From: an uncultured Oscillospiraceae bacterium
GTDB taxonomy: Bacteria > Bacillota > Clostridia > Oscillospirales > Oscillospiraceae
Direction of reading: 5' to 3'
NCBI GenBank assembly: GCA_934589525.1
Contig: CAKTOB010000005.1
Span: 1-64,000 of the forward strand
DNA: 64,000 nucleotides
The translations under genes and the position numbers were made by a program. Below, piece after piece: positions 1 to 15,635 of this stretch; position 1 is the first letter of the stretch; each line of letters starts with the position of its first letter. Under the pieces are notes generated by a model. The model had not been told where the DNA came from. It ran no database searches and saw nothing but the letters and a program-made list of their open reading frames with translations.

Positions 1-272
1 GAAATCACCAGTTCACAGCCCTCCTTGTCAAAGAGGCTGTCCAGACGTTCAACCAGAGTCTTGGTGATGTAGCAGATACAGCTGCCTGTCAGTTCCGAGG
101 CATTGCAGCCGGAAAGAGCGGCCAGTTTGTGATCTGCCAGACTTTGCTGCCCCAAGTCATTGCTGATCATGGCGGCTTTGCCGTGGTGGGCAGAAAAGAA
201 TCTGGTCAGGGCCATCATGGTGGTGGTTTTTCCGGAGCCTAAGAAGCCGCTGAATACCGCAAACTTTTTCAT
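1..272 (-). CDS. CobW/G3E-like P-loop GTPase, 5' part only (runs off window)
   Basis: The first 90 codons are visible; the 3' part lies beyond position 1. The protein opens MKKFAVFSGFLGSGKTTT, a Walker A motif preceded by the hydrophobic strand typical of G3E GTPases (CobW, HypB, UreG). A switch-like NDLG follows near residue 39 and a GSCICY segment near residue 66; CobW-type proteins carry a Cys-rich metal site in this region. The ATG overlaps the stop of the upstream C-GCAxxG-C-C gene by 4 nt (ATGA), so the two are probably translationally coupled. G3E GTPases usually help load metals or corrinoids into enzymes. Here the neighbours suggest a role in maturing the molybdenum hydroxylase or a linked metalloprotein, but that is inference. 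The exact subfamily cannot be set from 90 residues. Confidence 0.8.
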   Translation of the reverse strand, partial: MKKFAVFSGFLGSGKTTTMMALTRFFSAHHGKAAMISNDLGQQSLADHKLAALSGCNASELTGSCICYITKTLVERLDSLFDKEGCELVI

Positions 273-697
273 GTGAGAACCCCCGCTCTATCTAATATTT
301 CCATACATTTTTCATAGGTTGCGGCAATAATACCCGGACAATACTGCACTTTTTTTGCGGGGCTGATGCCCACAATGTCCCGGCAGTCTGTTGCCTGAAA
401 TTCCTCCTCTGCCCACTCAACAAACCACTGGGTAAACTCTGCCAGGGCCGCCTTGTGGGCCGGATGCTCATAGGCGGCATCCTCCGGCTTTCCTGTAAAG
501 TAGGAGATCATGCAGCAGCCCGCCGGCATACAGCCGCAAAGATAGCCGCTGCCGCCAATGCCGCCGTTGAGTCCCTGCATACTGCGGACAAAGCCGGGAT
601 TTTCCTCAGAAAAGGTTTCCATCAGCAAAATGGCCAAAATCTGTCCGCAGGCGTAGCCGCTGCGGCTCAACTCCAAAATCCGTTCTTCCAGGTCCAT
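269..697 (-). CDS. C-GCAxxG-C-C family protein (DVU_1555-like)
   Basis: A 142-aa protein starting MDLEERILELSRSGYACGQ. Cysteines sit at the N-terminal YACGQ, in a central GYLCGCMPAGCC segment after a glycine-rich stretch, and near the C terminus (TDCRDIVG, VQYCPGI). This spacing fits the C_GCAxxG_C_C family, putative redox or metal-binding proteins of unknown function. I chose the internal ATG at 697 because an AAAGGA sequence precedes it and an upstream start would run deep into the methyltransferase gene. It starts 4 bp after that gene's stop and overlaps the GTPase start by 4 nt. In Desulfovibrio a relative sits in the same neighbourhood of an aldehyde oxidoreductase cluster, from memory of family naming. 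Confidence 0.8.
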   Translation of the reverse strand: MDLEERILELSRSGYACGQILAILLMETFSEENPGFVRSMQGLNGGIGGSGYLCGCMPAGCCMISYFTGKPEDAAYEHPAHKAALAEFTQWFVEWAEEEFQATDCRDIVGISPAKKVQYCPGIIAATYEKCMEILDRAGVLT

Positions 698-701
698 TGG
701 C

Positions 702-1217
702 TCACATCCTTTCGCATACGAACAGCACATAGCTGATGTGCTTTCCCTTGGGCGCGCATACATGTTCCTGGGTCCATAGGGCTTCCAGGTAGTATTCCCT
801 CCAAATATCCGTCAAATCTTCCAGGTGCCGCACCGCAAAGCCTGCCTGGCGGCACCGGTTCAGCAGCTCGACCACGTCCTCGGTCACATCCGAAAATACC
901 AGCTTGCCGCCGGGGCCCAGGAGCCTTGCCGCCTCTTCAAGAGCTCCCGGCACATTGCCGCTGACATAGAAGCTGCACTGGCTGAGAATACCGTCAAAGG
1001 AAGCTGCTTCCCAGGGGGTATGGAGAAAATCGCCGGGTTCTACGTCCCCTCCCCGGGGGCACAGGTCCATACCCCGGGCTTCATATCCAAGCTCCCGCAG
1101 AAGCCTGACCCCTGCCCCGTCACCGGCGCCCATATCCAGCCAACGGCTGCCCCGGGGCAGAAAGGAGAGTTCGATCATATAGCGGCTGTGTTCCAGGCCG
1201 CCGGGATGGCCCTGCAT
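702..1217 (-). CDS. Class I SAM-dependent methyltransferase (DVU_1556-like)
   Basis: A 171-aa Rossmann methyltransferase. Motif I is LDMGAGDGAGV near residues 27-37, followed by the acidic residue of the second strand in ARGMDLCPRG, then FDGILSQCSFYV and LLGPGGKLVFSD as motifs post-II and III. It is short and has no extra substrate domain, so the substrate cannot be read. The ATG overlaps the stop of the 72-aa redox protein gene (TAATG), with GGAGGATAA as ribosome-binding site inside the upstream gene. The conserved position between the small Cys-rich redox protein and the C-GCAxxG-C-C protein suggests a role in the molybdenum-hydroxylase cluster, possibly modifying a cofactor or partner. That role is inference. 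Confidence 0.85.
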   Translation of the reverse strand: MQGHPGGLEHSRYMIELSFLPRGSRWLDMGAGDGAGVRLLRELGYEARGMDLCPRGGDVEPGDFLHTPWEAASFDGILSQCSFYVSGNVPGALEEAARLLGPGGKLVFSDVTEDVVELLNRCRQAGFAVRHLEDLTDIWREYYLEALWTQEHVCAPKGKHISYVLFVCERM

Positions 1218-1435
1218 TATTTATCCTCCAGGGCTTTCTCCACAGAAAGCACCTTGCCCAGGGCCAATTCCTCAGGGACGTAAATAAAGCCGCACTTGGG
1301 ACACACCGGAAGCTCCACGGGAAAGCCGTTGTCCAAATACATGAACTTTGCCTTTCCCTTTTCCAGCTTACATTGACATTTGAGGCACAGGAGTTTTCCC
1401 TCCGGGTCGATGGTATAGTAGTTTTTATCTGCCAT
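1217..1435 (-). CDS. Small Cys-rich redox/zinc-ribbon protein (DVU_1557-like)
   Basis: A 72-aa protein with two CxxC pairs: LCLKCQC near residue 17 and PVCPKCGFIYVPE near residue 45, spaced like a rubredoxin-like or zinc-ribbon knuckle. The start has a clear ribosome-binding site (TAAGGAGAACGCC before ATG) that overlaps the end of the upstream 750-aa gene region, 10 bp away. It is probably a metal-binding electron carrier or scaffold. The order large Fe-S protein, this protein, methyltransferase, C-GCAxxG-C-C protein matches the gene order I recall around DVU_1555-1558. Function is unknown; iron versus zinc cannot be decided from sequence. Confidence 0.8.
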   Translation of the reverse strand: MADKNYYTIDPEGKLLCLKCQCKLEKGKAKFMYLDNGFPVELPVCPKCGFIYVPEELALGKVLSVEKALEDK

Positions 1436-1445
1436 GGCGTTCTCC

Positions 1446-3698
1446 TTACTCCCGGTTTACAATGTTCATCCGGTGGCTGTAAGCCCTATGCACCCGGTAG
1501 CCCCCTTCAATGGGCTGGTAGCGGACCCAGAAGGTCACATTGCCCAGGCGAAGACTGGTCAGGCGCAGGCCGGTTTCTTCGTCCAAAATGGCCTGACCGG
1601 TTTCCTGCAAATGCTGAAAAACCTGAACCACATCGGATTTTAAAATCATCCGGTCATCCATCATGGTTTCCGCCTCCGGGGTGTATTCGATCACAAATTC
1701 CGGCTCCATTTCCGGCACCTCCTGGTTCCAAATCTGCTTCATCAGGCCGTATTTTAACTCCAAACGGTTTTTCCGCTTGGCACTGATGTCCGGGCAGTTG
1801 TCCGCCGGGGTGTTATAAACCAGCTCCAGCAGGTGCATGGACCGGCGGCCCTGGCGGGCGAAGCGGTCCCGACAGGCCATGCAGTAGCTTAAATAGGGCA
1901 AATCCGACCGCTCCAGGCACTGGACAGTCATTTCATTTGCCACCTCTCGGTTGGCGTATTGGGTCAGGCCACCATAGCCGCAGCAAGGAGCCCGATCTCC
2001 CTCATAGGGTGTTTGGGTCACCTGACAGCCCAGTTCTTCCGCAATGCGGCGAATGGAATCCTGGGTCTGCCGGTCTCCCCGGGCACCGCAGCCGTCATGG
2101 ACCGCCACAGGCCCGCAAAACTGCCCATGGGGCGGCAGACCGATTTCTTCCAGAACTTCCCAAATTCCCCGAACCTGTTGGCCCTGACCGGTAAGCTGCT
2201 TTTTACAGGTGGGGCAGCCCGCAATGACCACCGGATTTCCAAGGCTTTGAAGCTGCTCCCGGAGAAAAGCCACGGTGTCATCGTAAAGCTCATATCGGCC
2301 CGCCCAGTCGCAGATGGCACCGCAGCAGCCCAGCATCAGAGCAACGCCCCCTTGGAGGCGGCCGCACAAGTCCAGGTAGGCCGCCTGCACTGCCTGGGGG
2401 GCAATGGCGGAAGCCTGGCAGCCGGGGAAAAAGACATACTTACAGGTCGTAAAGCCCGGCTGAGGCAGAGCCAAAAAGGCCTCTGTGTTGGAAAAGAGCA
2501 TGTCCATCAGTGCAAACTCATGGGGGGCCAAGGGCATTTTCCCGGTGGTGACCATGTTTCTCCGGGCGATCAGACAAACCTCTGCCATGTCATACCCGTT
2601 GGGACACAGGACGCTGCACTGGCCACAGAGGGAACAGGCGTTAATGGGCTTGTTCATCATATGGTCCCCCATGATGATGGAAACATTGTTGTAGATTTCC
2701 CGGGTCAGGACCCGGGGGAATTTTTTATAATGGCGCAGATAAGCACAGCCCTTGATACATTCCTCACACCGGCACTGGATGCACCGGGCCGCTTCCGCGA
2801 TGGCTCCTTCCCGGTCTGTGCAGGCAATGCGCTTGCTGGGGGCGACTCCCTCCAGGGAGGTATAGAGCTTGGTTTCCACGCTGCCCTCCTGGCCCCGGGT
2901 ATTGGCGGGGTCCAGCTTTTGGGCCATGCGGTCTACGGAAAGGGCCGCTTTTTTAGCAGCGAAGGCCGCGCCAAGGGTCCCCTGCCAGGGGCCGGTAATA
3001 AGATTTCTCTCCCGGCAGACCATCAGCGCTTCTTCCGCATGATCTTCCGGAAAAAGGGCTCTGAAAACATCAAAGGAAGCGCAGACCAAATCGTATTTTC
3101 CCGCCTCCTGCCGGAAACCATCCTCCGGCTCGGCGTTCCAGAGGAAGCGGACATCCAATCCGGACACATCCGCCTCCGCCCCCTGGGGGACCTTGGGCAG
3201 GACCTGGGTCAGCAAGGCTCCGGCATCGCTCTGGGAGAGATAGAAGGTCACAGGGTACATTTTCTTGCTCAATTCCCCGGCCAAAAACAGGGTAAACAGG
3301 TCCGCTCCGAAAATGGCAACGGTCTTGGTCTTTTTCCGCAGCAGTCCCCTGCCCTTTCCCCGGCTGCCATAGGAAACGGCGGCGGCTTCCAGCTCCCCCA
3401 GGGCAATGCCCTCACCCAAGGAACAGAGTTTGCATGTTCCTTCACAGGGCGCTTCACACAGGGCCGATAGGATATGGGGCAAGGGAGTGATTTTTTCGTA
3501 AAGCCCCAGGGCCTTGTCAAAATTCCCTTGGGCGATGGCCTGGGTCATGGCCTTGGCATCCAGCTTCAGCGGGCAGGCGGCACTACAGTAAGCGGGCTGT
3601 TCGTGGACGCACAGATGCTCCCTGGCCTCCAGTTCCTCTTTGGTAAACATCCGCTTTTGCCGGTAAACATGGGTCGAAGCCCGTTCTTTCAGGATCAT
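1446..3698 (-). CDS. Fe-S oxidoreductase with GltD-like N-terminus and two CCG domains (DVU_1558-like)
   Basis: A 750-aa cytosolic protein. Residues about 30-90 resemble the Fe-S domain of GltD/dihydropyrimidine dehydrogenase (CSAACPLKLD, CEAPCEGTCKLCSLGEG). Residues about 120-260 look like a nucleotide-disulfide oxidoreductase domain, but the glycine motif reads VAIFGADLFTLFLAG, so FAD binding is doubtful. Then come CIQCRCEECIKGCAY and a 4Fe-4S motif CSLCGQCSVLCPNG, followed by two heterodisulfide-reductase-type CCG segments (LMLGCCGAICDW, APCCGYGG). The start has AGGAGG 8 nt upstream. It follows the aldehyde oxidoreductase in the same direction and is the likely electron partner, carrying electrons to an unidentified acceptor. 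The C-terminal 90 residues match nothing I recognise. Confidence 0.85.
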   Translation of the reverse strand: MILKERASTHVYRQKRMFTKEELEAREHLCVHEQPAYCSAACPLKLDAKAMTQAIAQGNFDKALGLYEKITPLPHILSALCEAPCEGTCKLCSLGEGIALGELEAAAVSYGSRGKGRGLLRKKTKTVAIFGADLFTLFLAGELSKKMYPVTFYLSQSDAGALLTQVLPKVPQGAEADVSGLDVRFLWNAEPEDGFRQEAGKYDLVCASFDVFRALFPEDHAEEALMVCRERNLITGPWQGTLGAAFAAKKAALSVDRMAQKLDPANTRGQEGSVETKLYTSLEGVAPSKRIACTDREGAIAEAARCIQCRCEECIKGCAYLRHYKKFPRVLTREIYNNVSIIMGDHMMNKPINACSLCGQCSVLCPNGYDMAEVCLIARRNMVTTGKMPLAPHEFALMDMLFSNTEAFLALPQPGFTTCKYVFFPGCQASAIAPQAVQAAYLDLCGRLQGGVALMLGCCGAICDWAGRYELYDDTVAFLREQLQSLGNPVVIAGCPTCKKQLTGQGQQVRGIWEVLEEIGLPPHGQFCGPVAVHDGCGARGDRQTQDSIRRIAEELGCQVTQTPYEGDRAPCCGYGGLTQYANREVANEMTVQCLERSDLPYLSYCMACRDRFARQGRRSMHLLELVYNTPADNCPDISAKRKNRLELKYGLMKQIWNQEVPEMEPEFVIEYTPEAETMMDDRMILKSDVVQVFQHLQETGQAILDEETGLRLTSLRLGNVTFWVRYQPIEGGYRVHRAYSHRMNIVNRE

Positions 3699-3726
3699 TG
3701 CGTCGCCTCCTCAGAAATGGCCAATA

Positions 3727-3748
3727 GAGAGGCGGTCCCCCGCCTCTC
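3727..3748 (-). other. Intergenic hairpin between Mop-like and Fe-S oxidoreductase genes
   Basis: GAGAGGCGG and CCGCCTCTC form a 9-bp stem with a 4-nt loop in the 92-bp gap. No T-run follows on the minus strand, so it is more likely an mRNA processing or stability element that tunes the two genes than a full terminator. Confidence 0.5.
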
Positions 3749-3790
3749 CATTGCAGCACAGAAAATCAAGTGTTAAAACGTATATTCTAC

Positions 3791-6547
3791 TTAGTTTTGA
3801 AGCTCTTTCAGAGCGGCCAGAACCACTTCCGGCAGAGCGGGAACACGGGTGATCCGGGCGCCGGTGGCATTGTAAATGGCGTTCAGGATGGCAGGATGCG
3901 GTGCATCCAGAGGTGCCTCGCCGCAGCCGGCGGCACCATAGGGGCCTTCGGGACGGTAGGTTTCCACATAATGCAGCTCGATGTCATCAGGAACATCCTT
4001 GGGATAAGGAATACCGCAGCCCTTCAGGCTTGTATGCTTGGTCAGGTCATCAAAGTCCTCGGTAAGCGCCAGGCCGATGCCCTGGGCCAAACCGCCGTAG
4101 AAGTTGCCGTCTACCAGCAGCCGGTTCATAATGGTGCCTACGTCTGCCACGCAGGTGAACTTCTCCACGGTGACCTTGCCGGTCTTCGTATCCACGCAGA
4201 CCTCCGGCAGGAACAGGGTGTACATGTATACGGAGAAGGGATCGCCCTGGGCGGTGGCCTGGTCCACAGGATGGTCGGCGCAGTAGGTGGCGACCCACTG
4301 GCCCTGCACCTTGGTGTCAATGCCGTCAGCGACCATTTCGTCATAGGTGCGGTAGGTGCCGTCGTCCTTGCGCATGGCGGTGAGCAGGTTCTCCGCTGCC
4401 AGACGGCAGGCGTTTCCGGACATGACCTGGCTGCGGGAGCCACCGGCGGGGCCGGAGTTGGGGGTGATCTTGGTGTCGTTCATGACAAGGCGGATCTGCT
4501 CCGGACGGATGCCCGCCTGACGCAGGGTCTCATGGGCGGAAACCAGCATGCCCATATCCGCGCCCTGGCCGTGATCCTCCCAGGAGGCGTACATGGTGAC
4601 GCTGCCGTCGGGGTTCAGCTCCGCATAAGCCTGCGAGGAGTCCACGCCGTCCAAACCGCAGCCGTAAACACCGGAGGATACGCCGATACCGTACTTGAAG
4701 CGGCCGTCGGAGGCGGCGTTCTTTTCGGCAACACGCTTCTTGGCGGCTTCATAAAGCGGACGGGCCTGCTTGTACATCTCTTCCAGGCAATAGACATCGG
4801 GTTTGTAGCCTGTGGGAATGGTAGAACCCTCGGATTCCTTGTAGCAGTTCAGCTCCCGGATGTCAAAGGGGTCCATGCCCATCTTGGCCGCCAGAACGTC
4901 AATGGCGATTTCAGAACCCATAAAGGACTGGGGAGAGCCGTAGGCACGGAAAGCGGAACCCCAGGCGTGGTTTGTAAAGACGGTGGTGCTCTTATTGCGG
5001 ATGGTGGGAATATGGTAGCCCGCACCCACAAACTGGCTCAGCCGGTGGGTCAGCAGGTCGCCAAACTCGGAGTAGGGACCGTGGTCTACGTAGTTGTCGC
5101 CCCACAGGCCCAGAAGCTTGCCCTTTTCATCGGCGGCCAGCTTGATGTGCATGAAAGCGGGGCTGCGCTTGCCGGTGTAGGTAATGTTCTGGAACTGATT
5201 GAATACCAGGGACACGGGATGGCCGGTGATCTTGGCGGCAACGCCCAGAATGGCCTCGTTGGTGGGAGAGAACTTATAGCCGAAGGTACCGCCGGTGTGG
5301 TTCTGGACCAGACGCAGCTTCTCCATAGGAACACCGATGCCGTCAGCGATCATGGGCATATGCAGGTGAATGCCGATGGACTTGGAATGTACGGTGAGCA
5401 TACCGTCCTCATCGATATAGGCATAGCCGCAGTCGGGCTCCAGGTGCAGATGGGGCTGGCGGGAGCAGTAGGACTCAATTTCCACCACGTTGGGGGCGGA
5501 ATCAAAGTCAAAGTCCGGGCCCTTGATGCAGTTGGTTTCATAATAGGCATTGGGAATGCCGGGATGGATCTCAATGGCGTCCTCCGCAATGGCATCCATG
5601 GCGTTCATGTAGGCGGGCAGCTCTTCAATGTCCACCTTCACCGCATCGGCGGCGGCTCTGGCGTGGGCCTCGGTGTCGGCGGCCACAATGGCAATGGCGT
5701 CACCGAACTGGAAGATCTTTTCGTCACACAGAACGGGACGCTCCCAACCGTCGGTTTTGTTGTTGAGCGGCAGCATGACCAGACCGTTGATGCGGTTCTT
5801 GCCACCGGCAGCCACAATATCCTTGGCGGTAATGATTTGGAATACACCGGGCATTTTTTCGGCTTCGGAGGTGTCAATGCCCTTAATATTGGCGTGGCTG
5901 ACCTTGGCCTGGACCAGGGCCAGACGGAGGGTATCGGCTGGCATCTTCAGAGCGTCGTCTGCGCCAAAGTCCCAGGTGCCGGTGACCTTCTGGGCGGCAG
6001 AGGGACGGATGTACTTGGTGCCGACAATGGAATCTTCCGTAGGTTTAAAGACCAGATCCTCCTTGGTGATTTCCCCACGAATGACCCGGGCGGCATCCAT
6101 GACCGCGTCAATGAGGGGCTTATAGCCGGTGCAGCGGCAGAGATTCCGGTTCTTCTGGAACCAATCTCTTACCTCCTCCCGGGTGGGAGCGGGGTTGTTG
6201 TCCAGCAGCACCTTGGCAGTCATAATAAAGCCGGGAGAGCAGAAGCCGCACTGGGCGCAGCCGTGGGCCATCCAGGCCACCTGCAGCGGGTGCATATCGG
6301 AAATGGTGCCGATGCCTTCAATGGTGGTGATCTGTGCGCCGTCCTTCAGACGGCTGAGTTTGGTGAGACAGGAACGGGTGACCTTGCCGTCCACAATGAC
6401 GTTACAGGCGCCGCAGTGACCTTCGCCGCAGCCAATCTTACAACCGGTCAACAGCAGACGCTCCCGCAGGAACGAAGCCAGCGTTTCGTTTTCCTCAACC
6501 AGGACGGAACGGGTAATGCCGTTGATTACAAATGTTCTTTTGATCAT
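3791..6547 (-). CDS. Molybdopterin-dependent aldehyde oxidoreductase (Mop/xanthine oxidase family)
   Basis: A 918-aa single-chain enzyme, close to the length of Desulfovibrio gigas Mop. The N-terminal plant-type 2Fe-2S domain has CKIGCGEGHCGAC near residues 36-48 and a Cys near 60. The second 2Fe-2S domain has CAQCGFCSPG near 98 and CRCTGY near 137. The large molybdopterin domains follow, with GGTFGYK, AFRAYGSPQ, and near residue 870 GAAGCGEAPLDAPHP, which holds the conserved active-site glutamate. No FAD domain is present, as in Mop. The family oxidises aldehydes to acids with water, using a molybdopterin cytosine dinucleotide cofactor. A MocA-like nucleotidyltransferase encoded nearby fits this. 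The true substrate is not readable; purine or other heterocycle hydroxylation is possible. Confidence 0.92.
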   Translation of the reverse strand: MIKRTFVINGITRSVLVEENETLASFLRERLLLTGCKIGCGEGHCGACNVIVDGKVTRSCLTKLSRLKDGAQITTIEGIGTISDMHPLQVAWMAHGCAQCGFCSPGFIMTAKVLLDNNPAPTREEVRDWFQKNRNLCRCTGYKPLIDAVMDAARVIRGEITKEDLVFKPTEDSIVGTKYIRPSAAQKVTGTWDFGADDALKMPADTLRLALVQAKVSHANIKGIDTSEAEKMPGVFQIITAKDIVAAGGKNRINGLVMLPLNNKTDGWERPVLCDEKIFQFGDAIAIVAADTEAHARAAADAVKVDIEELPAYMNAMDAIAEDAIEIHPGIPNAYYETNCIKGPDFDFDSAPNVVEIESYCSRQPHLHLEPDCGYAYIDEDGMLTVHSKSIGIHLHMPMIADGIGVPMEKLRLVQNHTGGTFGYKFSPTNEAILGVAAKITGHPVSLVFNQFQNITYTGKRSPAFMHIKLAADEKGKLLGLWGDNYVDHGPYSEFGDLLTHRLSQFVGAGYHIPTIRNKSTTVFTNHAWGSAFRAYGSPQSFMGSEIAIDVLAAKMGMDPFDIRELNCYKESEGSTIPTGYKPDVYCLEEMYKQARPLYEAAKKRVAEKNAASDGRFKYGIGVSSGVYGCGLDGVDSSQAYAELNPDGSVTMYASWEDHGQGADMGMLVSAHETLRQAGIRPEQIRLVMNDTKITPNSGPAGGSRSQVMSGNACRLAAENLLTAMRKDDGTYRTYDEMVADGIDTKVQGQWVATYCADHPVDQATAQGDPFSVYMYTLFLPEVCVDTKTGKVTVEKFTCVADVGTIMNRLLVDGNFYGGLAQGIGLALTEDFDDLTKHTSLKGCGIPYPKDVPDDIELHYVETYRPEGPYGAAGCGEAPLDAPHPAILNAIYNATGARITRVPALPEVVLAALKELQN

Positions 6548-6585
6548 AATGCTGAGACCTCCCCTTTTTTTGCTGCAAAGCCAAA

Positions 6586-6837
6586 CTATTTGTGTGTACC
6601 GCAGGGATCTTTGTCAGGTCCGTTTCCGGTCAGATCCTGCAACCGCTGCATACCGCGGGCGGTGTAAAAAACCAGCTGGGACAGGCTTCCGTCCAGGTTT
6701 TCCCCCCGCAAAACCAGGGTGTTGGCGGTTTCCAGATAGTCAATAGGCAGGGTCCTGCGGTAGGTCTTCCCGCTTACACTGTCTGTGACCTCTAAAGTGA
6801 CCTCCCGGGCGGAGATTTGAAAGACATCCTCGTTCAT
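6586..6837 (-). CDS. Small hypothetical protein at head of the molybdenum-hydroxylase operon
   Basis: An 83-aa protein with one cysteine, near the C terminus, and no membrane segment. It starts MNEDVFQISAREV and is rich in beta-forming residues up to about residue 65, ending in a polar tail. GGGGGTGAAAAACC before the ATG is a good ribosome-binding site, and the promoter at 6888-6917 places it as the first gene of the leftward operon, 38 bp before the aldehyde oxidoreductase. I do not recognise the family. Position suggests a chaperone, assembly or regulatory factor for the oxidoreductase; this is a guess. Confidence 0.65.
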   Translation of the reverse strand: MNEDVFQISAREVTLEVTDSVSGKTYRRTLPIDYLETANTLVLRGENLDGSLSQLVFYTARGMQRLQDLTGNGPDKDPCGTHK

Positions 6838-6887
6838 GGTTTTTCACCCCCATTTGAGAACGCGATATGTACAACTTTTACAATTTC

Positions 6888-6917
6888 ATTATAACTTATA
6901 AAGCGTAAGATGTACAA
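6888..6917 (-). promoter_or_regulatory. Promoter of the aldehyde oxidoreductase operon, with paired ATGTACAAC repeats
   Basis: On the minus strand TTGTAC (6912-6917) and TATAAT (6888-6893) are spaced 18 bp. The 9-bp sequence ATGTACAAC occurs at 6910-6918, covering the -35, and again at 6867-6875, just downstream of the likely start site. Their 43-bp separation is about four helical turns, a layout that would suit a looping repressor. The likely regulator is the ModE-like fusion encoded at 8146, but no binding consensus was matched. Confidence 0.65.
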
Positions 6918-7003
6918 CATGCAATATTTTATAAGTCGTAGAAAAAAGGAGGGAAATATTGTGCAAGGCTCCTAAAAAATATTGACAAATTTTGAATGGA
7001 TTT

Positions 7004-7978
7004 TTAGAAACTCTCTTCTATTTTTGTCCAGGGTTTGGGCAAGACCAGGCTCACGCAGCTGTCACATAGCGGGACTCCGGCCAAAGGGTGCCCCAGCTCC
7101 ACCCCATAATTTTCAAGGGCCTGACGGACACCGGGAAGGTTGGGATTTCCCCAGTCGTGAAGTAGCAGGAATCCTCCGGGGTTCAGCCGGGGCCAGAAAT
7201 ACCGGAGGCCCTCCAGGGTGACTGTGTAAAAATCCCCGTCCAGGGATACAAGGCAAAACCGCTCCTCGAGACCCCGGAGAGACCCGGGGAAAAAGCCGGG
7301 GTAGATTCTTGCCTGCTCTGGGTAAGGCAGGGCCTTCAGAACCGTTTCCGGGTCCGTATTCCCGTGGGCTTGCTGAAAGGCTGGGCCCGCCCCGGCCAAT
7401 TCGTCAAAGCCCTGAAAGCTGTCAAACAGATAGAGCTCTCGCTCCGGCAACAGGCGGTTGATGCACCCGGCAAAGAAGCCCCGGTAGACGCCCAGCTCCG
7501 CGGCGGCACCGGGAACCTGTGACACCTGGCAGCAGAGCAATTCCAGCGTAGACAGCCGCACATAGTCCCCTGCCAGCGCCTCCGGTGGGAGTTGAGGCGC
7601 ACGCAGTTTTCCGGGGACCGGGATCACCCGGTATTGCGGAAGGAGCTTTTCCAGCACTTCTTTTCCAAGAATATCCTCCGCCACGGTGCAGTTCCGGTTT
7701 CGGTCCTCCAGAACACAGCTGTCCTTCAGATACAAAATCCTGCTTTCCGGCAGACCAATTTCCCGGCAGGTCTGGGCCACAGCCTGGGCATGGCGGGTGG
7801 TCACGATCATCAGGCTGCACCGGGTAATGTCCAGTTCCCCGGGGCGGCAGACTGGTTTTCCCATAAACATGGTACTGCGGGGAACGGTTTCCACAAAACC
7901 GTCGATGTCGGAAACCGGCAGGACGCTGTCCAGCAGCTCCGCCGCACCGCAGCCGGTACCCCATAGATAGATGCCCAT
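7004..7978 (-). CDS. TylF/MycF-type methyltransferase-like protein
   Basis: A 324-aa protein. The first 100 residues form a Rossmann-like N-terminal part starting MGIYLWGTGCGAAELL. The C-terminal half has the TylF/macrocin O-methyltransferase pattern: AAELGVYRGFFAG near 155, LYLFDSFQGFDE near 180, FCLVSLDGDFYTVTLEGL near 245 and GGFLLLHDWG near 275; the aspartates are metal-binding in TylF. GGGGGCCACAACC precedes the ATG, and a promoter lies at 8007-8034. Similar two-part proteins often methylate sugars in surface polysaccharides. Its place between the oxidoreductase operon and the divergent cofactor genes may be coincidental. Confidence 0.8.
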   Translation of the reverse strand: MGIYLWGTGCGAAELLDSVLPVSDIDGFVETVPRSTMFMGKPVCRPGELDITRCSLMIVTTRHAQAVAQTCREIGLPESRILYLKDSCVLEDRNRNCTVAEDILGKEVLEKLLPQYRVIPVPGKLRAPQLPPEALAGDYVRLSTLELLCCQVSQVPGAAAELGVYRGFFAGCINRLLPERELYLFDSFQGFDELAGAGPAFQQAHGNTDPETVLKALPYPEQARIYPGFFPGSLRGLEERFCLVSLDGDFYTVTLEGLRYFWPRLNPGGFLLLHDWGNPNLPGVRQALENYGVELGHPLAGVPLCDSCVSLVLPKPWTKIEESF

Positions 7979-8006
7979 GGTTGTGGCCCCCTTTCGTCAT
8001 ACATCC

Positions 8007-8034
8007 ATTATATCGGATTTGCACAATTATTCAA
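8007..8034 (-). promoter_or_regulatory. Promoter of the TylF-like gene
   Basis: Minus strand TTGAAT (8029-8034) and TATAAT (8007-8012) with a 16-bp spacer, 29 bp before the start codon. It is back to back with the rightward promoter at 8054. Confidence 0.65.
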
Positions 8035-8053
8035 GAAAAAATTCAAAAGTGTA

Positions 8054-8082
8054 TTTACAAAAAGCACAAATTGTCGTATAGT
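8054..8082 (+). promoter_or_regulatory. Promoter of the nucleotidyltransferase-NTPase-ABC operon
   Basis: TTTACA (8054-8059) and TATAGT (8077-8082) with a 17-bp spacer. The leader to the TTG start at 8146 is about 55 nt. The divergent arrangement with the 8007 promoter would allow one regulator to control both. Confidence 0.65.
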
Positions 8083-8145
8083 AAATCTAAGCAAATTCAT
8101 TTTGATTGTAATTCGCTCTCCAAAACGGTACAGGAGGTGGGAAAT

Positions 8146-9072
8146 TTGCAAAACGCAGCCCTGATTTTGGCGGCGGGAATGTCCTCCCGAATGGGGGATT
8201 TTAAGCCCATGATGAGCATCGGCTCCATTTCCGTTGCCCAGCGGGTGGTGGCGACCTTCCATCGGGCAGGGGTAGACAAAATCGTCATGGTCACAGGCTT
8301 CAATGCCCCCATGCTGGAACGGCACCTGTCCGACAACGGCATTATCTTTTTAAGAAACGAGGATTACCGCCAGACCCAGATGTTCGATTCCGTAAAAATC
8401 GGCCTGAGCTATCTGCAAGACAAATGCGACCGGGTGCTGCTGACCCCTGTGGACGTACCCCTCTTTACCGCCCAGACCGTGGAAAAGCTCCTGTCCTCCG
8501 GCGGAGCCCTGGCCTGTCCCCGGTGCCAGGGGGCCACAGGCCACCCCATCCTCATTGGAAGCGCCCTGATCCCCACCATTTTGGCAGACTCCGGGGACCG
8601 GGGACTGCAAGGGGCTATGGAGCGGTGTGGAGAGGTGCTGTGTCTGGTAGACGTTGACGACCCGGGAACCCTCAAGGATGCGGATACCCCCGAGGATTTT
8701 TCCGCCCTGCTGGCCTATCACAATTCCCAACTGGTGCGTCCCGTTGTCAATGTCTCCCTGGACCGGGAGTTCACCTTCTTTGACCGCAGGCTGGCCATGC
8801 TTCTGATGCTGGTGGACGAGACCCACTCCGTAAGAGCTGCCGGACAGCGGATGCAGTTCAGCTATACCAGCTGCTGGAACATGATCAAGGCTCTGGAAAG
8901 CCAGCTGAACTATCCCCTGCTGCAGCGAGCCCAAGGCGGAGCCAAGGGAAGCCAAAGCTGGCTGACCCAGGAGGGAAAACGGTTTTTGGAACGGTACAGC
9001 GCCTATGAGCAGGCGGTAAAAACCTATGCCGACTCCATTTTTGAAGACTACTTTGAAGGGCTGTTTGAATGA
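8146..9072 (+). CDS. MocA-like nucleotidyltransferase fused to ModE-type winged helix (DVU_1551-like)
   Basis: A 308-aa protein starting at TTG, 6 nt after GGAGGTGGGAAA; longer upstream starts lack a ribosome-binding site. Residues 1-190 are an NTP-transferase domain: LILAAGMSSRMGDFKPM near residue 5, then TPVDVPLF near 100 and CQGATGHPILI near 130, as in MocA/MobA, which attach CMP or GMP to molybdopterin. Residues about 210-300 are a LysR/ModE-type helix-turn-helix: DETHSVRAAGQRMQFSYTS, then GGAKGSQSWLTQEGKRFL, close to the ModE pattern. One protein may therefore both finish the cofactor and sense or regulate molybdenum supply. It overlaps the next gene by 4 nt. Confidence 0.85.
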   Translation: MQNAALILAAGMSSRMGDFKPMMSIGSISVAQRVVATFHRAGVDKIVMVTGFNAPMLERHLSDNGIIFLRNEDYRQTQMFDSVKIGLSYLQDKCDRVLLTPVDVPLFTAQTVEKLLSSGGALACPRCQGATGHPILIGSALIPTILADSGDRGLQGAMERCGEVLCLVDVDDPGTLKDADTPEDFSALLAYHNSQLVRPVVNVSLDREFTFFDRRLAMLLMLVDETHSVRAAGQRMQFSYTSCWNMIKALESQLNYPLLQRAQGGAKGSQSWLTQEGKRFLERYSAYEQAVKTYADSIFEDYFEGLFE

Positions 9073-9620
9073 AACGCCGTTTGTTTTTGACCGGGCCCAT
9101 TGGCTGCGGGAAAAGCACCGCCATTGCCCAGGGGCTGGGTGACCGCCGGGGGGCATTGGGAGGATTCGTCACCCTCCGGGAGGGCCCCGCCCACCGGCCC
9201 CAGCGGTTTTTTCTGGAAACCGCGCAGGCCCGGGAGCGGACGGTATTTTTGGATTTGACAGGAGAAAAGCCCTGCGTAGACCTGTCGGCCTTTTCCGGTC
9301 TGGGGGTCCGGAGCCTTCAAACAGGCCCCCTTCTTTTAGATGAGATCGGCGGTATTGAGCTGCTGTGCCCTGAATTTTTAGAGGCGCTGGAGGATGCCCT
9401 GACCGGCGAGATCCCGGCCATTGGGGTCATCAAAGCTCCGGAGTCCAGTCTGACCCTGGCCCGGTGTTTGGGACTTACAGAGCAATACCTTGCCGCCGCT
9501 GACCGTCTGCGCCGCCTGTTGGAGCAGAATGACCGGACAGAGATTTACACCTGCGGAACGTTTGACCCCCAGGCCCGGGCGCTGACAGAGCTGTGGGCAC
9601 GGGAATATCTATGGCGTTGA
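9069..9620 (+). CDS. THEP1-like nucleoside-triphosphatase
   Basis: A 183-aa P-loop NTPase. Walker A is TGPIGCGKSTA at residues 8-18; Walker B is LLLDEIGGIELL near residue 85, with the catalytic glutamate next to the aspartate as in the THEP1/NTPase_1 family. The ATG overlaps the stop of the upstream nucleotidyltransferase gene (ATGA), so they are coupled. Similar NTPases occur beside molybdopterin enzymes and may act in nucleotide or cofactor handling. The substrate is unknown. The protein lacks any membrane or DNA-binding segment. Confidence 0.75.
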   Translation: MKRRLFLTGPIGCGKSTAIAQGLGDRRGALGGFVTLREGPAHRPQRFFLETAQARERTVFLDLTGEKPCVDLSAFSGLGVRSLQTGPLLLDEIGGIELLCPEFLEALEDALTGEIPAIGVIKAPESSLTLARCLGLTEQYLAAADRLRRLLEQNDRTEIYTCGTFDPQARALTELWAREYLWR

Positions 9621-9649
9621 TATAGAAACGTACAAGGAGGAATAGGCCC

Positions 9650-10666
9650 ATGACAAAAAAATACCGGCGCACGGTCTGGCTCCTGGGCCTGGGGCTGATC
9701 GCAGCCATGGCCGCCTCTGTGACTCTGGGGCGCTACCCCATTGCCCTGGGGGACCTGCTGAAAATTCTGGGCAGCCGTTTCGGCCTACCCATCGCCAAGA
9801 CCTGGACTGTTCAGACGGAGGTGGCCCTCATCAACATCCGGCTTCCCCGGGTGGTCCTCAGCGTGTTGGTGGGCGCCTGCCTTGCGGCGGCGGGGGCCTG
9901 CTATCAGGGGGTCTTTCAGAACCCCATGGCCTCCCCGGACATTCTGGGGGCCTCCGCAGGAGCGGGCTTTGGGGCAGCGTTGATGATTTTGCTTGGCATG
10001 TCCAATGTGTTCATCACCCTGGGGGCCTTTGGGTGCAGCCTGCTGACCGTAGCCCTGGTGTTTGCGGTAAGCCGCCACGCCAAAGGAGAGCGGATCTTGG
10101 GGCTGGTGCTGTCGGGCATTATGATCTCCTCCCTATTCCAGGCGGGCACCTCTTTTTTGAAGCTGGTGGCAGACCCCAATAACCAGCTGCCCCAGATCAC
10201 CTATTGGCTCATGGGCAGCCTCTCCGGGGCCAAGTGGGGAGAAATTCGTTTTGTCATTCTGCCCATGCTCGCTGGGCTTCTGCCCCTGCTGCTGCTGCGC
10301 TGGCGGCTGAATGTGGTGACCATGGGCGATGACGAAGCCTTGGCCATGGGCGTGGATGCGGGAAAGCTGCGGCTCATCATGGTGGTATGCTCCACCCTGG
10401 TCACCGCCTCGGCGGTATCCGTCAGCGGCACCATCGGCTGGGTGGGCCTGGTCATCCCCCATATGATGCGGCGGCTGGTGGGCTCGGACTATCGGTATCT
10501 CATGCCCGCCTCCATGCTGGGCGGCGGCATCTTCCTGCTATTGGTAGACAATATTTCCCGGGCCGCCACGGCATCGGGCATCCCCATCGGCATTCTGACC
10601 GCCTTTGTGGGCGCGCCCTTTTTCCTTTGGCTCATTACAGGAAGGGGGGAGCGCTATGCCGATTGA
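9650..10666 (+). CDS. FecCD/BtuC-type ABC transporter permease
   Basis: A 338-aa integral membrane protein with an N-terminal hydrophobic segment and multiple predicted helices, starting MTKKYRRTVWLLGLGL. Family motifs are present: NIRLPRVVLSVLVGACLAAAG near residue 65, NPMASPDILGASAGA near 90, and the coupling-helix region VSGTIGWVGLVIPHMMR near 255. AAGGAGGAATAGGCCC precedes the ATG. It imports a ligand delivered by the binding protein at 11441. The family carries iron siderophores, haem, cobalamin, and in the MolABC branch molybdate or tungstate. Location after molybdopterin genes favours molybdate/tungstate, by inference. Confidence 0.9.
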   Translation: MTKKYRRTVWLLGLGLIAAMAASVTLGRYPIALGDLLKILGSRFGLPIAKTWTVQTEVALINIRLPRVVLSVLVGACLAAAGACYQGVFQNPMASPDILGASAGAGFGAALMILLGMSNVFITLGAFGCSLLTVALVFAVSRHAKGERILGLVLSGIMISSLFQAGTSFLKLVADPNNQLPQITYWLMGSLSGAKWGEIRFVILPMLAGLLPLLLLRWRLNVVTMGDDEALAMGVDAGKLRLIMVVCSTLVTASAVSVSGTIGWVGLVIPHMMRRLVGSDYRYLMPASMLGGGIFLLLVDNISRAATASGIPIGILTAFVGAPFFLWLITGRGERYAD

Positions 10667-11438
10667 AGTAAAGGATCTGAGCTTCTCCTACGGGAAACGG
10701 CAGGTTCTGCAAAACATCAGCTTCCGGGTGGACGAAGGCGAGTTTCTGTCCATTCTCGGCCCCAACGGCGTGGGAAAAAGCACCCTGTTCCGCTGTATGC
10801 TGGGCCTGCTCTCCGGATATTCTGGAACCGTACTTGTAGACGGTGAGGACATCCGCCATATTTCCGTCCAGGAGCGGGCCAAACGCATTGCCTACATCCC
10901 CCAGAGCAGCGACCCCACCTTCCATTTTAGCGTGGGCGACGTGGTCTTAATGGGCACCACCAGCGGCCTTTCCGCTTTCCAGACCCCCGGCAAAAAAGCC
11001 CTGGAGCGCCGGGACTGGGCCATGGAGAAGGTGGGCATTTCCCATCTCACCGAGCGCTGCTACCACAGACTCTCAGGAGGCGAACAAAGGCTTGTAATGA
11101 TTGCCCGGGCGCTTGCCCAGGACGCCCCCATTTTGATGCTGGACGAGCCCACCGCCAATCTGGACTTTGGTAATCAGCTGCGGGTATTGCAGCAGATCCA
11201 GTCCCTGGCCAAAGAGGGCTATACCGTCATCCAGACCACCCACCATCCGGAGCAGAGCTTCCAGTTTTCCACCAGGATCCTGGCCATTCAGGCAGGTCAG
11301 ATCTTACAGGACGGCTCCCCCCGGCAGGTGCTGACCAGGGAAAATATGGAAAAACTCTACCATGTGGATGTGGAAGTGGTCAGTCTCATGGACGATGAGG
11401 CAAGAATTTGTATTCCAAAACTCAAAAAGGAGTGTTGA
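10656..11438 (+). CDS. ABC transporter ATP-binding protein (FecE/BtuD/MolC-like)
   Basis: A 260-aa ATPase. Walker A GPNGVGKST near residue 36, Q-loop AYIPQSSDP near 80, signature LSGGEQR near 140, Walker B ILMLDEPTANLD near 160 and switch His in TTHHPEQ near 195. I start it at 10656, the ATG after GGGGGGAGCGCT; this overlaps the permease stop by 11 bp. It powers import through the permease at 9650. The substrate is shared with the neighbours and remains inferred. Confidence 0.9.
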   Translation: MPIEVKDLSFSYGKRQVLQNISFRVDEGEFLSILGPNGVGKSTLFRCMLGLLSGYSGTVLVDGEDIRHISVQERAKRIAYIPQSSDPTFHFSVGDVVLMGTTSGLSAFQTPGKKALERRDWAMEKVGISHLTERCYHRLSGGEQRLVMIARALAQDAPILMLDEPTANLDFGNQLRVLQQIQSLAKEGYTVIQTTHHPEQSFQFSTRILAIQAGQILQDGSPRQVLTRENMEKLYHVDVEVVSLMDDEARICIPKLKKEC

Positions 11439-11440
11439 AA

Positions 11441-12574
11441 ATGAAAAAAACGACCGTATGGATTATGGTTCTGACCCTGCTGCTGGGACTGCTCTCCGGC
11501 TGCGGAACCACGGCACAGCCTGCCCCCACCGAAACTGCCCCGGCGGCTCCTACCACACAGGCCCCGCCCCAGGAAACCACCCAAGCCCCCACGGAATCCC
11601 AGACCCAGGAATTTACCGATGACGTGGGCCGCACCGTGACCCTGCCGGCGGAAATCACCGCCATTGCCATTTCCGGACCTTTGAGCCAGGTATACATTCT
11701 GCCTTTGGCGGGGGATATGCTGGTAGGTGTCAGCAATGTCTACGCCAAAGAGCAGGAAAAGTTTTTGCCGGACTATCTGACCCAGAAAACCGAAATCGGC
11801 CAGCTCTACGGCGGCAAGGCCACACTGAATCTGGAAGGGCTGCTGGCGGCTGATCCGGACGTGGTCATTGACATCGGCCAGCCCAAGAAGAGCATGAAGG
11901 AGGACCTGGATGGGCTGACTGCCCAGACCGGCATTCCCTTTGTCCATGTGGATGCCACCGTCGCCACCGCAGCCCAGGCCTACCGGACCCTCGGCAAGCT
12001 CTTGGGACGGGTTGACCGGGCAGAAGAAATTGCCCAGTGGTGCGAGAACACCTACAGCCGGATGGAAGCCATTATGGAAAAGGTGGATGCAGACAACGCC
12101 CGGAAGACCATTCTCTACTGTCTGGGTGACAAGGGCACCAACGTCATGGCCGAAGGCTCTTTCCATGGGGAAACCGTCGATATGATGGCCAAGAACATAG
12201 CCAGCCTGGATGAAGTCAGCTCCAGCGGCAACGGCAATGAGGTGGATATGGAGCAGCTGCTTCTCTGGAATCCGGAGGTGCTGGTCTTTGCCCCGGAAAG
12301 CTGCTATGACACCGTGGCCACAGACCCCCAGTGGAGCCAGATGCAGGCGGTTGCCAACAAGCAGTATTATAAGACCCCCTACGGCCCCTATGGTTGGCTA
12401 TCCTCTCCCCCCGCCGTCCAGCGTTACTTGGGCATGCTGTGGCTGGGTGCGGTGCTGTACCCGGAGTACATTGATTACGATCTGCAAACCGAAGTTACGG
12501 AATACTATAAGATGTTCTACGGCTGCGAGCTGACAGACGAAATGTATCAGGACCTGATGAAGGACGCACTGTGA
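11441..12574 (+). CDS. ABC transporter substrate-binding lipoprotein (BtuF/MolA-like)
   Basis: A 377-aa lipoprotein. The signal peptide ends in LLSGCG, with the lipid-modified Cys near residue 22, followed by a Thr/Pro-rich linker. The periplasmic-binding-protein type III fold follows: DDVGRTVTLPAEITAI near 55, AADPDVVIDIG near 145, and the C-terminal PYGPYGWLSSPPAVQRYLG near 320. The last motif is common in the class that includes siderophore and oxyanion binders. AAAGGAGTGTTGAAA precedes the ATG and it starts 2 bp after the ATPase gene. Molybdate or tungstate is the ligand suggested by the operon; no ligand-specific residues could be assigned. Confidence 0.88.
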   Translation: MKKTTVWIMVLTLLLGLLSGCGTTAQPAPTETAPAAPTTQAPPQETTQAPTESQTQEFTDDVGRTVTLPAEITAIAISGPLSQVYILPLAGDMLVGVSNVYAKEQEKFLPDYLTQKTEIGQLYGGKATLNLEGLLAADPDVVIDIGQPKKSMKEDLDGLTAQTGIPFVHVDATVATAAQAYRTLGKLLGRVDRAEEIAQWCENTYSRMEAIMEKVDADNARKTILYCLGDKGTNVMAEGSFHGETVDMMAKNIASLDEVSSSGNGNEVDMEQLLLWNPEVLVFAPESCYDTVATDPQWSQMQAVANKQYYKTPYGPYGWLSSPPAVQRYLGMLWLGAVLYPEYIDYDLQTEVTEYYKMFYGCELTDEMYQDLMKDAL

Positions 12575-12580
12575 TCACAA

Positions 12581-12607
12581 ACCCCCGGGATCAAAAATCC
12601 CGGGGGT
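12581..12607. terminator. Bidirectional terminator between convergent genes
   Basis: ACCCCCGGGAT and ATCCCGGGGGT form an 11-bp perfect stem with a 5-nt loop, followed on the plus strand by ATTTATAT. It lies between the rightward ABC operon and the leftward DUF6320 gene, so it may stop both. Confidence 0.8.
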
Positions 12608-15488: not shown

Positions 15489-15635
15489 GGTAAGCCCCCA
15501 TCCGTACTGCCGGGCATCAAGCCCGTTTATGAAAACGTATCTTTGATCCCAAGGCATGGCCGCCCAGGGACCGTCCTACCGATTATAGGGGATAAACGTG
15601 AATTTTTCAATATATTTTCCGTATTTTCACAAAAA

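Follow-up and report, generated by a model that had tools for sequence, protein, structure and literature searches.

Gene content of the island

The DNA studied here, called the window below, is a stretch of 64,000 nucleotides from an uncultured Oscillospiraceae bacterium (contig CAKTOB010000005.1 of assembly GCA_934589525.1). Its first part carries an island of genes around Mop, a molybdenum-dependent aldehyde oxidoreductase. The open reading frames (ORFs) of the window were assigned by comparing Pfam and NCBIfam profile scores with the curated cut-offs. All the genes that a first-pass annotation of this DNA had listed for the island are present within 1-12574, and they form two divergent blocks, one on the minus strand (3-7978) and one on the plus strand (about 8146-12574), see Table 1. 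That reading had missed two genes, an ORF of 83 amino acids (aa) and one for a TylF-like protein.

Table 1. Genes of the island, with profile scores in bits against family cut-offs where given; loci refer to the 81 loci compared below
Feature	Position	Strand	Evidence
CobW/G3E-type GTPase, N-terminal 90 aa, cut by the window edge	3..272	-	PF02492, 42.5
C-GCAxxG-C-C protein, DVU_1555 family	269..697	-	NF045669, 134.4 against cut-off 103
Class I S-adenosylmethionine (SAM) methyltransferase, DVU_1556-like	702..1217	-	NF045667, 99.7 (under cut-off 155); Methyltransf_23, 49.7 (over 27); PF13489/PF08241
72-aa Cys protein, DVU_1557-family CxxC...CxxC zinc-ribbon/rubredoxin-like redox protein (DUF7479)	1217..1435	-	NF045645, 92.1 (over 60); PF24292
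Dicluster (multi-Fe-S/CCG) protein	1446..3698	-	NF045663, 788 (over 530)
Mop-type molybdenum aldehyde oxidoreductase	3791..6547	-	NF045668, 1540.8 (over 1100); 1DGJ, 1SIJ/1VLB over full length
83-aa protein beside Mop, C-terminal D-x-C-x-x-H	6586..6837	-	no Pfam or NCBIfam family at E 0.001
TylF/Methyltransf_24-domain protein, loosely attached	7004..7978	-	PF05711; relatives in 37 of 81 loci
MocA-like cytidylyltransferase fused to ModE-like domain	8146..9072 (start approximate)	+	TIGR03310, 110.2, and TIGR00637, 56.9, both under cut-offs
THEP1-like nucleoside triphosphatase (NTPase)	9069..9620	+	PF03266; relatives in 7 of 81 loci
BtuC/FecD-type permease	9650..10666	+	NCBIfam, under cut-offs of named subtypes
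BtuD/FecE-type ATPase	10656..11438	+	NCBIfam, under cut-offs of named subtypes
Substrate-binding protein, probable lipoprotein, substrate inferred	11441..12574	+	weak PGF/IsdE/BtuF-type matches

The closest relatives of the window are gut Oscillospiraceae-type Clostridia. For the dicluster protein, the nearest entry in the protein database is 98% identical and the second 74%, and the best species genomes reach about 73%. The operon probably continues past base 1, as TrsS and the DVU_1553 ligase come next in relatives. The genes that tell most about function, TrsS and the adenosine monophosphate (AMP) ligase, thus lie beyond what had been described as a self-contained island, outside the window.

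A gene set already named after Desulfovibrio

The island is the gut Clostridia version of a set that NCBIfam names after Desulfovibrio DVU_1551-1559, and because these names already exist it is not a new system. Nine models cover the set (NF045645, NF045646 and NF045663-NF045669). The first-pass annotation had ranked the island as its best candidate for a new system, a view that is not supported, also because TrsS is found in a 2026 review, where one table, in the excerpt available, cites Haft & Tolstoy 2025 (PMC13188914). The latter may describe this neighbourhood, and unpublished status is not claimed here.

The resemblance to the Desulfovibrio region, proposed earlier from family knowledge, is borne out: the NCBIfam models match in order, and the gene order in relatives follows the DVU numbers. 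In the window Mop, the dicluster protein, DVU_1557 and the DVU_1555 protein all score over their cut-offs. There are also differences. The window has a MocA-ModE fusion, under the NF045665 cut-off, instead of the MocA-HD fusion of six other loci (L102, L103, L111-L114); its methyltransferase stays under the cut-off, the flavin motif of its dicluster protein is lost, and it has in addition a BtuCDF-type importer, the TylF-like gene and the 83-aa gene. The loci of relatives, in turn, add TrsS (NF045646), the DVU_1553 ligase (NF045666) and an XdhC-related factor (NF045664).

The accessory proteins had been thought to have undescribed roles, in agreement with the literature library searched, which held no mention of DVU1551, 1553, 1554, 1555, 1556 or 1557. 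DVU_1559 (DVU1559) is tabulated as an aldehyde oxidoreductase in the excerpts of two papers (PMC10920352, PMC11784015). Chlorate and random barcode transposon-site sequencing (RB-TnSeq) data from D. vulgaris were set aside: the excerpt names an aldehyde oxidoreductase other than Mop, namely DVU1179, a putative tungsten enzyme (PMC10102598).

Co-occurrence of the helper genes with Mop

We compared 80 loci of relatives, anchored on the dicluster protein, with the window (81 loci in all), using profiles made from the genes of the window and of its relatives as labels. Mop, the dicluster protein, DVU_1557, the methyltransferase, the C-GCAxxG-C-C protein, TrsS and the ligase recur in near-fixed order. 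When unlabelled ORFs shorter than 100 aa are skipped, the neighbouring pairs are Mop-dicluster in 74 loci, dicluster-DVU_1557 in 76, DVU_1557-methyltransferase in 71, methyltransferase-C-GCAxxG-C-C in 69, C-GCAxxG-C-C-TrsS in 48 and TrsS-ligase in 53. Fifty-three loci have full flanks (upstream 3 kb or more, downstream 4.5 kb or more); Mop, DVU_1557, the C-GCAxxG-C-C protein and the ligase are found in all 53 of them, the methyltransferase in 50 and TrsS in 45, a number that is unchanged at a 300-bit threshold. Across the 80 relatives' loci TrsS is present in 59 and the ligase in 70. Further, TrsS exceeds its cut-off in all 12 genomes checked, including four whose locus lacks it.

Since the 53 loci were chosen by their dicluster protein, an unbiased count was run on an even sample of 398 genomes from the phylum to which Blautia wexlerae belongs. 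The best two to four candidates per genome were scored in the dicluster, TrsS and Mop searches; the ligase was counted in the genomes with DVU_1557, and the methyltransferase and the C-GCAxxG-C-C protein in the anchored loci.

DVU_1557 is found in 26 genomes, and each of them has Mop; the score exceeds the cut-off in 25, and in G088 a contig end cuts the gene short. At E 1e-150 the Mop search returns 61 genomes: 26 over the cut-off, two with truncated genes (G088 and G085) and 33 with weaker relatives only. DVU_1557 is present in 26 of the 28 Mop genomes and in none of the 33 (Fisher p 9e-39, not corrected for phylogeny); in one of the two Mop genomes without it, G095, Mop lies at a contig end. 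TrsS is over its cut-off in 24 genomes, namely 23 of the 26 and one further genome, G368. It falls just under the cut-off in two of the remaining three (G084, G327) and has no match at E 1e-80 in G219, while matches of 313-367 bits, again under the cut-off, occur in six further genomes. The ligase is over its cut-off in 22 of the 26. Thirty-two genomes reach the cut-off of the dicluster model NF045663, and the 25 with a Mop-type protein (at least 690 bits) are all among the 26, with only G088 missing. Four genomes (G054, G219, G305, G389) have at least two Mop genes over the cut-off; each of them has at least two dicluster proteins and two DVU_1557 genes, and a second TrsS over the cut-off is seen only in G054. 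Two loci around weaker Mop relatives (L133, L134) contain none of the helpers.

The helper set is coupled to Mop, nearly always but not strictly. The genes are grouped beyond chance, and the counts in 398 genomes and 81 loci support the idea of one system around Mop. A neighbourhood comparison of the small genes had been proposed as a check. For the 72-aa gene this was run genome-wide and ties it to the oxidoreductase, so the outcome named beforehand as speaking against one system, small genes usually occurring without the oxidoreductase, did not occur; for the methyltransferase and the C-GCAxxG-C-C protein the association is established within the anchored loci.

The oxidoreductase and its redox partners

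Mop enzymes oxidise an aldehyde at a molybdopterin-cytosine-dinucleotide (MCD) site. Judged by its sequence, the Mop of the window belongs to the D. gigas-type aldehyde oxidoreductase family NF045668, and the same activity is predicted for it. Its chain has two [2Fe-2S] domains and the Mo domains, without a flavin adenine dinucleotide (FAD) domain; its Pfam matches are PF00111, PF01799, PF01315, PF02738 and PF20256 only, plus a sub-threshold PF13085. Near the C terminus GCGEAPLDAPH aligns with GVGEMPLTAPH of 1DGJ and retains the active-site Glu, which we take to be Glu869 of the D. gigas enzyme. The crystallised enzymes of D. gigas and D. desulfuricans (1VLB, 1DGJ) are likewise one chain with two [2Fe-2S] domains, an MCD-type Mo domain and no FAD, and match over the full length; in the excerpts of the literature available, they are not tied to helper genes. 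The D. gigas protein was the first structure solved in the xanthine-oxidase family, and flavodoxin takes part in its electron transfer in vitro, according to the excerpt of PMC10223205. Oxidation of the dithiolene switches the enzyme (PMC3877041, in excerpt), and keeping the dithiolene reduced is a possible, hypothetical task of the redox helpers.

The selenium-dependent molybdenum hydroxylases also belong to the xanthine-oxidase family and have dedicated accessory genes (Haft & Self 2008, PMC2276186). They differ from the window in that its Mop scores 421.7 against TIGR03311, whose equivalog cut-off is 830.45, and in that genomes with only weaker Mop relatives have no DVU_1557. Selenocysteine was considered by reading through TGA in 12 families of the 81 loci, and no convincing internal selenocysteine was seen. 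Most TGA codons lie at gene ends; odd ones, for instance in L042, L009 and L020, gave no clear call, and a single TGA at the C-terminal end of the G295 TrsS may be its own stop.

The dicluster protein had been described as an electron carrier with several Fe-S sites. The Fe-S part of this stands, but the model suggests a GltD/Nfn-HdrC-HdrB chimera rather than a plain carrier. In the model a Nfn/GltD-like half, which seems to lack the NAD(P)H domain, is followed by an HdrC-like 4Fe-4S pair, an HdrB-like half with two CCG sites and an extra C-terminal domain. The folds of the two halves are those of HdrB and NfnABC; the dicluster protein differs by being one fused chain, by the absence of about 200 residues from the Nfn half, a stretch present in longer relatives, and by a degenerate flavin motif (GxGxxG is lost in 70 of 78 proteins). 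Both CCG sites are fully conserved. DVU_1557 is fused to the dicluster protein in three loci, each from a different genome (L097, L098, L100). A relative of DVU_1557 was sought in the Protein Data Bank, and no clear one was found.

The longer dicluster relatives (839-888 aa in L138-L145, seven over the cut-off and one just below) carry the roughly 200 extra residues between the two matched parts. Several of them lie near ATP-binding cassette (ABC) transporter genes, and no Mop or helper label was present within the 14-17 kb inspected. A 159-aa protein in L119 (7720-8199), which bears a twin-arginine translocation (Tat) signal, shares with the dicluster protein just the C-terminal domain.

TrsS and the other helper proteins

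On sequence grounds TrsS is a radical-SAM relative of the tetraether synthase Tes (MJ0619, structure 7TOL). Its N-terminal ribbon carries the Pfam name HMPTM, which we take to point to MJ0619-type enzymes. A role as pterin methylase, as this name might imply, was dropped: the excerpt of PMC9433317 gave no corroboration for a pterin role of those enzymes. TrsS shares with Tes the ligand positions of the rubredoxin-type site, of the N-auxiliary cluster and of the radical-SAM cluster, as well as the labile Met: aligned to 7TOL, C23/C26/C48/H51, C90/C94/C97/H100, C115/C119/C122 and M410 (the equivalent of Met439) are kept in at least 90% of 56 sequences. These are the positions named in the excerpt of PMC9433317, where the Cys that bind the third Tes cluster are not given; C332, C426 and C441 of TrsS are conserved in addition. 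TrsS differs from Tes in scoring 362.6 bits against NF045702, under the cut-off of 450, and in having Mo genes, not lipid genes, as partners.

In the methyltransferase D28, G32, G34, D51 and C81 are conserved in 98-100% of 103 relatives. The C-GCAxxG-C-C protein matches PF09719 (66.7, over 27), as do 33 of the 33 members of set A3, and its four Cys are invariant in 42 sequences; it is probably an iron-centre protein. A Foldseek search with its model gave nothing better than E 1.6, and only a second look brought up split-Soret cytochrome c (1H21), whose fold resembles the model. Cys55 and Cys121 both align there with a Cys; taken alone, the stretch with Cys121 is not significant, and the sequence match is weak (E 0.018). 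The CobW-like GTPase retains the GxxGxGKT motif and has CICY at the position where G3E proteins usually carry CxCC. Relatives of it occur in 10 loci, in eight of which TrsS adjoins (L031, L032, L051, L060, L076, L121, L122, L124); in L108 two genes lie between them, and in L023 the contig ends after CobW.

Possible function of the system

Gene content, order, co-occurrence, fusions, ligand conservation and modelled folds are observed directly; from here on we infer the chemistry and the product of the helper set. Our judgement is evenly balanced on the reading that we prefer, in which Mop works with an electron relay and is served by a maturation or tailoring pathway of its own. Mop would oxidise an aldehyde at the MCD site; by way of its two [2Fe-2S] clusters the electrons would reach the dicluster protein and DVU_1557, a route that gene order and fusions suggest. 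Going by their families, MocA-ModE would make the cytosine dinucleotide and sense molybdate, which the importer would supply. The methyltransferase, the C-GCAxxG-C-C protein, TrsS and the DVU_1553 ligase would form the pathway: TrsS may attack an unreactive C-H by Tes-like radical chemistry through an intermediate bound to cluster sulfur, the ligase may adenylate, the DVU_1556 methyltransferase may methylate, and the C-GCAxxG-C-C protein may carry electrons on its iron centre. More tentatively, D. gigas-type enzymes in general could depend on an undescribed organic product of TrsS, the methyltransferase and the ligase. This product could be a new diffusible electron carrier that the HdrB-like half reduces, or else a labile group, bound to the Mo-dithiolene or to the protein and lost from crystals.

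Several observations weigh against the preferred reading. Crystals of the D. gigas enzyme, obtained from its native host, reveal ordinary MCD at 1.28 A, and the enzyme does without a sulfido ligand, according to the excerpts of PMC10223205 and PMC3877041; because of this, any tailoring there must be absent, labile or off the cofactor. Shared ancestry inflates the Fisher value. In G085 the end of Mop is followed by 8.9 kb without a labelled helper, and in this small assembly no match to DVU_1557, the dicluster protein or TrsS was found; as far as seen, it is a real exception. In G219, a fragmented assembly, four Mop copies occur without a TrsS match at E 1e-80, and one of them (L131) stands alone. 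The other seven genomes that reach the NF045663 cut-off have longer relatives without Mop nearby, and the methyltransferase is under its family cut-off, though NF045667 is its best NCBIfam match. Finally, the TrsS-ligase module, together with a second TrsS-like gene, also occurs away from Mop, in L119 and in L123, the latter from genome G368, which has no Mop match.

This last observation, with the kinship of TrsS to a lipid enzyme and of the ligase to the PaaK-like, acid-activating family, fits a substrate pathway, in which the ligase converts the acid made by Mop to an acyl adenylate or acyl-CoA while a particular aldehyde is formed or remodelled by TrsS and the methyltransferase. We consider this rather doubtful: cofactor genes share the loci (MocA in 41 of the 81, XdhC in 30 and ModA in 17), and G305 and G389 each have two Mop copies with one TrsS and one ligase over the cut-off. 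That the helpers are mere neighbours of Mop, kept together by descent, is very improbable. The anchored loci come mostly from related gut Clostridia and G085 has Mop without the small genes, but the link with DVU_1557 speaks strongly against it, spanning a phylum-wide sample and being specific to Mop, not to the weaker Mop-like enzymes.

Because the flavin motif is lost and a stretch of about 200 residues is missing from the dicluster protein, another electron acceptor may be needed. This could be a new diffusible redox carrier, a small thiol- or quinone-like compound made by the methyltransferase, TrsS and the ligase and reduced by the HdrB-like half with electrons from Mop. The CCG sites are fully kept in a fold that matches HdrB of a disulfide-reducing enzyme, and C-S bonds can be formed by TrsS-type chemistry (PMC9433317, in excerpt). 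Still, CCG halves occur in electron-transfer proteins of the LutA/EtfD type as well, no such carrier is known or predicted, a protein acceptor is at hand in the DVU_1557 fused to the dicluster protein, and flavodoxin participates in vitro in moving electrons from D. gigas Mop; as the main task of the helpers, we find such a carrier unlikely.

Returning to the maturation or tailoring pathway, D. gigas Mop is exceptional in doing without a sulfido ligand. Even so, enzymes closely related to it are accompanied in nearly all cases by two unusual redox proteins together with a methyltransferase, an adenylating enzyme and a radical-SAM enzyme. If a working Mop needs this set, then either the cofactor is not fully described by the accepted picture, or Mop passes its electrons to a carrier not known so far. 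Further, the systems are present in many gut Clostridia, including Blautia, and the aldehyde acted on may therefore matter in the gut.

Cytidylyltransferase, importer and neighbouring genes

The MocA-like protein of the window scores 183.6 against NF045665 (DVU_1551), under the cut-off of 315, and matches only positions 2-196 of 359. In the stretch of the model beyond the MocA part, an HD domain is seen in other Clostridia and the ModE-like domain in the gut group. In the loci compared, 45 of 59 MocA ORFs show the MocA-ModE fusion (a few genes are counted twice in overlapping loci). In the window its TTG start was placed after GGAGGTGGG. An operator for the ModE-like domain was looked for in the divergent intergenic regions, and no common dyad stood out; the commonest, ATGGG-N10-CCCAT, in 14 of 24 entries (two of them empty owing to overlapping ORFs), agrees with MocA coding sequence at MGxFKPM. 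Besides the six loci named above, L027 and L028 carry the MocA-HD fusion, there fused also to a histidine phosphatase, and a separate histidine phosphatase lies beside MocA-HD in L102, L103 and L112. We know of no reason why phosphohydrolases should be tied to MCD synthesis.

Metal import had been proposed, and an importer with BtuC, BtuD and a binding protein is indeed present. A BtuC-type permease is found in 14 of 81 loci and ModA/ModB in 19, never together (0 of 81); this suggests, short of proof, molybdate as the cargo. In L007 a DUF364 gene, of a putative metal-chelation family, adjoins BtuC-type genes.

The 83-aa protein is present in 52 of 53 full-flank gut loci, usually adjoining Mop, and in addition in L111 and L114. 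Its family has 282 clusters in the protein database, and the 120 listed have no Pfam assignment.

In L109 (4488-8689), L128 (8414-12609) and L129 (5583-9891) a shorter Mop paralogue (883-888 aa) is accompanied by a cysteine desulfurase and a DsrC/TusE-like protein. After this set, L109 and L128 have genes for a histidine phosphatase, a methyltransferase, a C-GCAxxG-C-C protein and a ligase; beside the paralogue they also carry a THEP1-like NTPase in fusion with a class I methyltransferase domain (L109, 8800-9990; L128, 12713-13903). The sulfur relay that the DsrC/TusE-like protein and the desulfurase might form is seen in L109, L128 and L129 and not in L130; because L129 has it without the other helpers, it was not used as evidence on the main operon.

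The module away from Mop consists of TrsS, the second TrsS-like radical-SAM protein and a DVU_1553-type ligase (L123, 1717-5673; L119, 8404-12355), followed in L123 by a DUF5714 protein. A protein of 92-95 aa lies between a cysteine desulfurase and TrsS in L059 (14603-14881) and L077 (4974-5261), and five loci have a relative of it; for the L059 protein no Pfam family was matched.

Beyond the island, a 743-aa ORF at 13326-15557 of the window has an N-terminal part like hormone-sensitive-lipase-type esterases (under the cut-off). Its C-terminal part has no NCBIfam match and contains a HAVTDG stretch that resembles the HHxxxDG motif of condensation-type acyltransferases.

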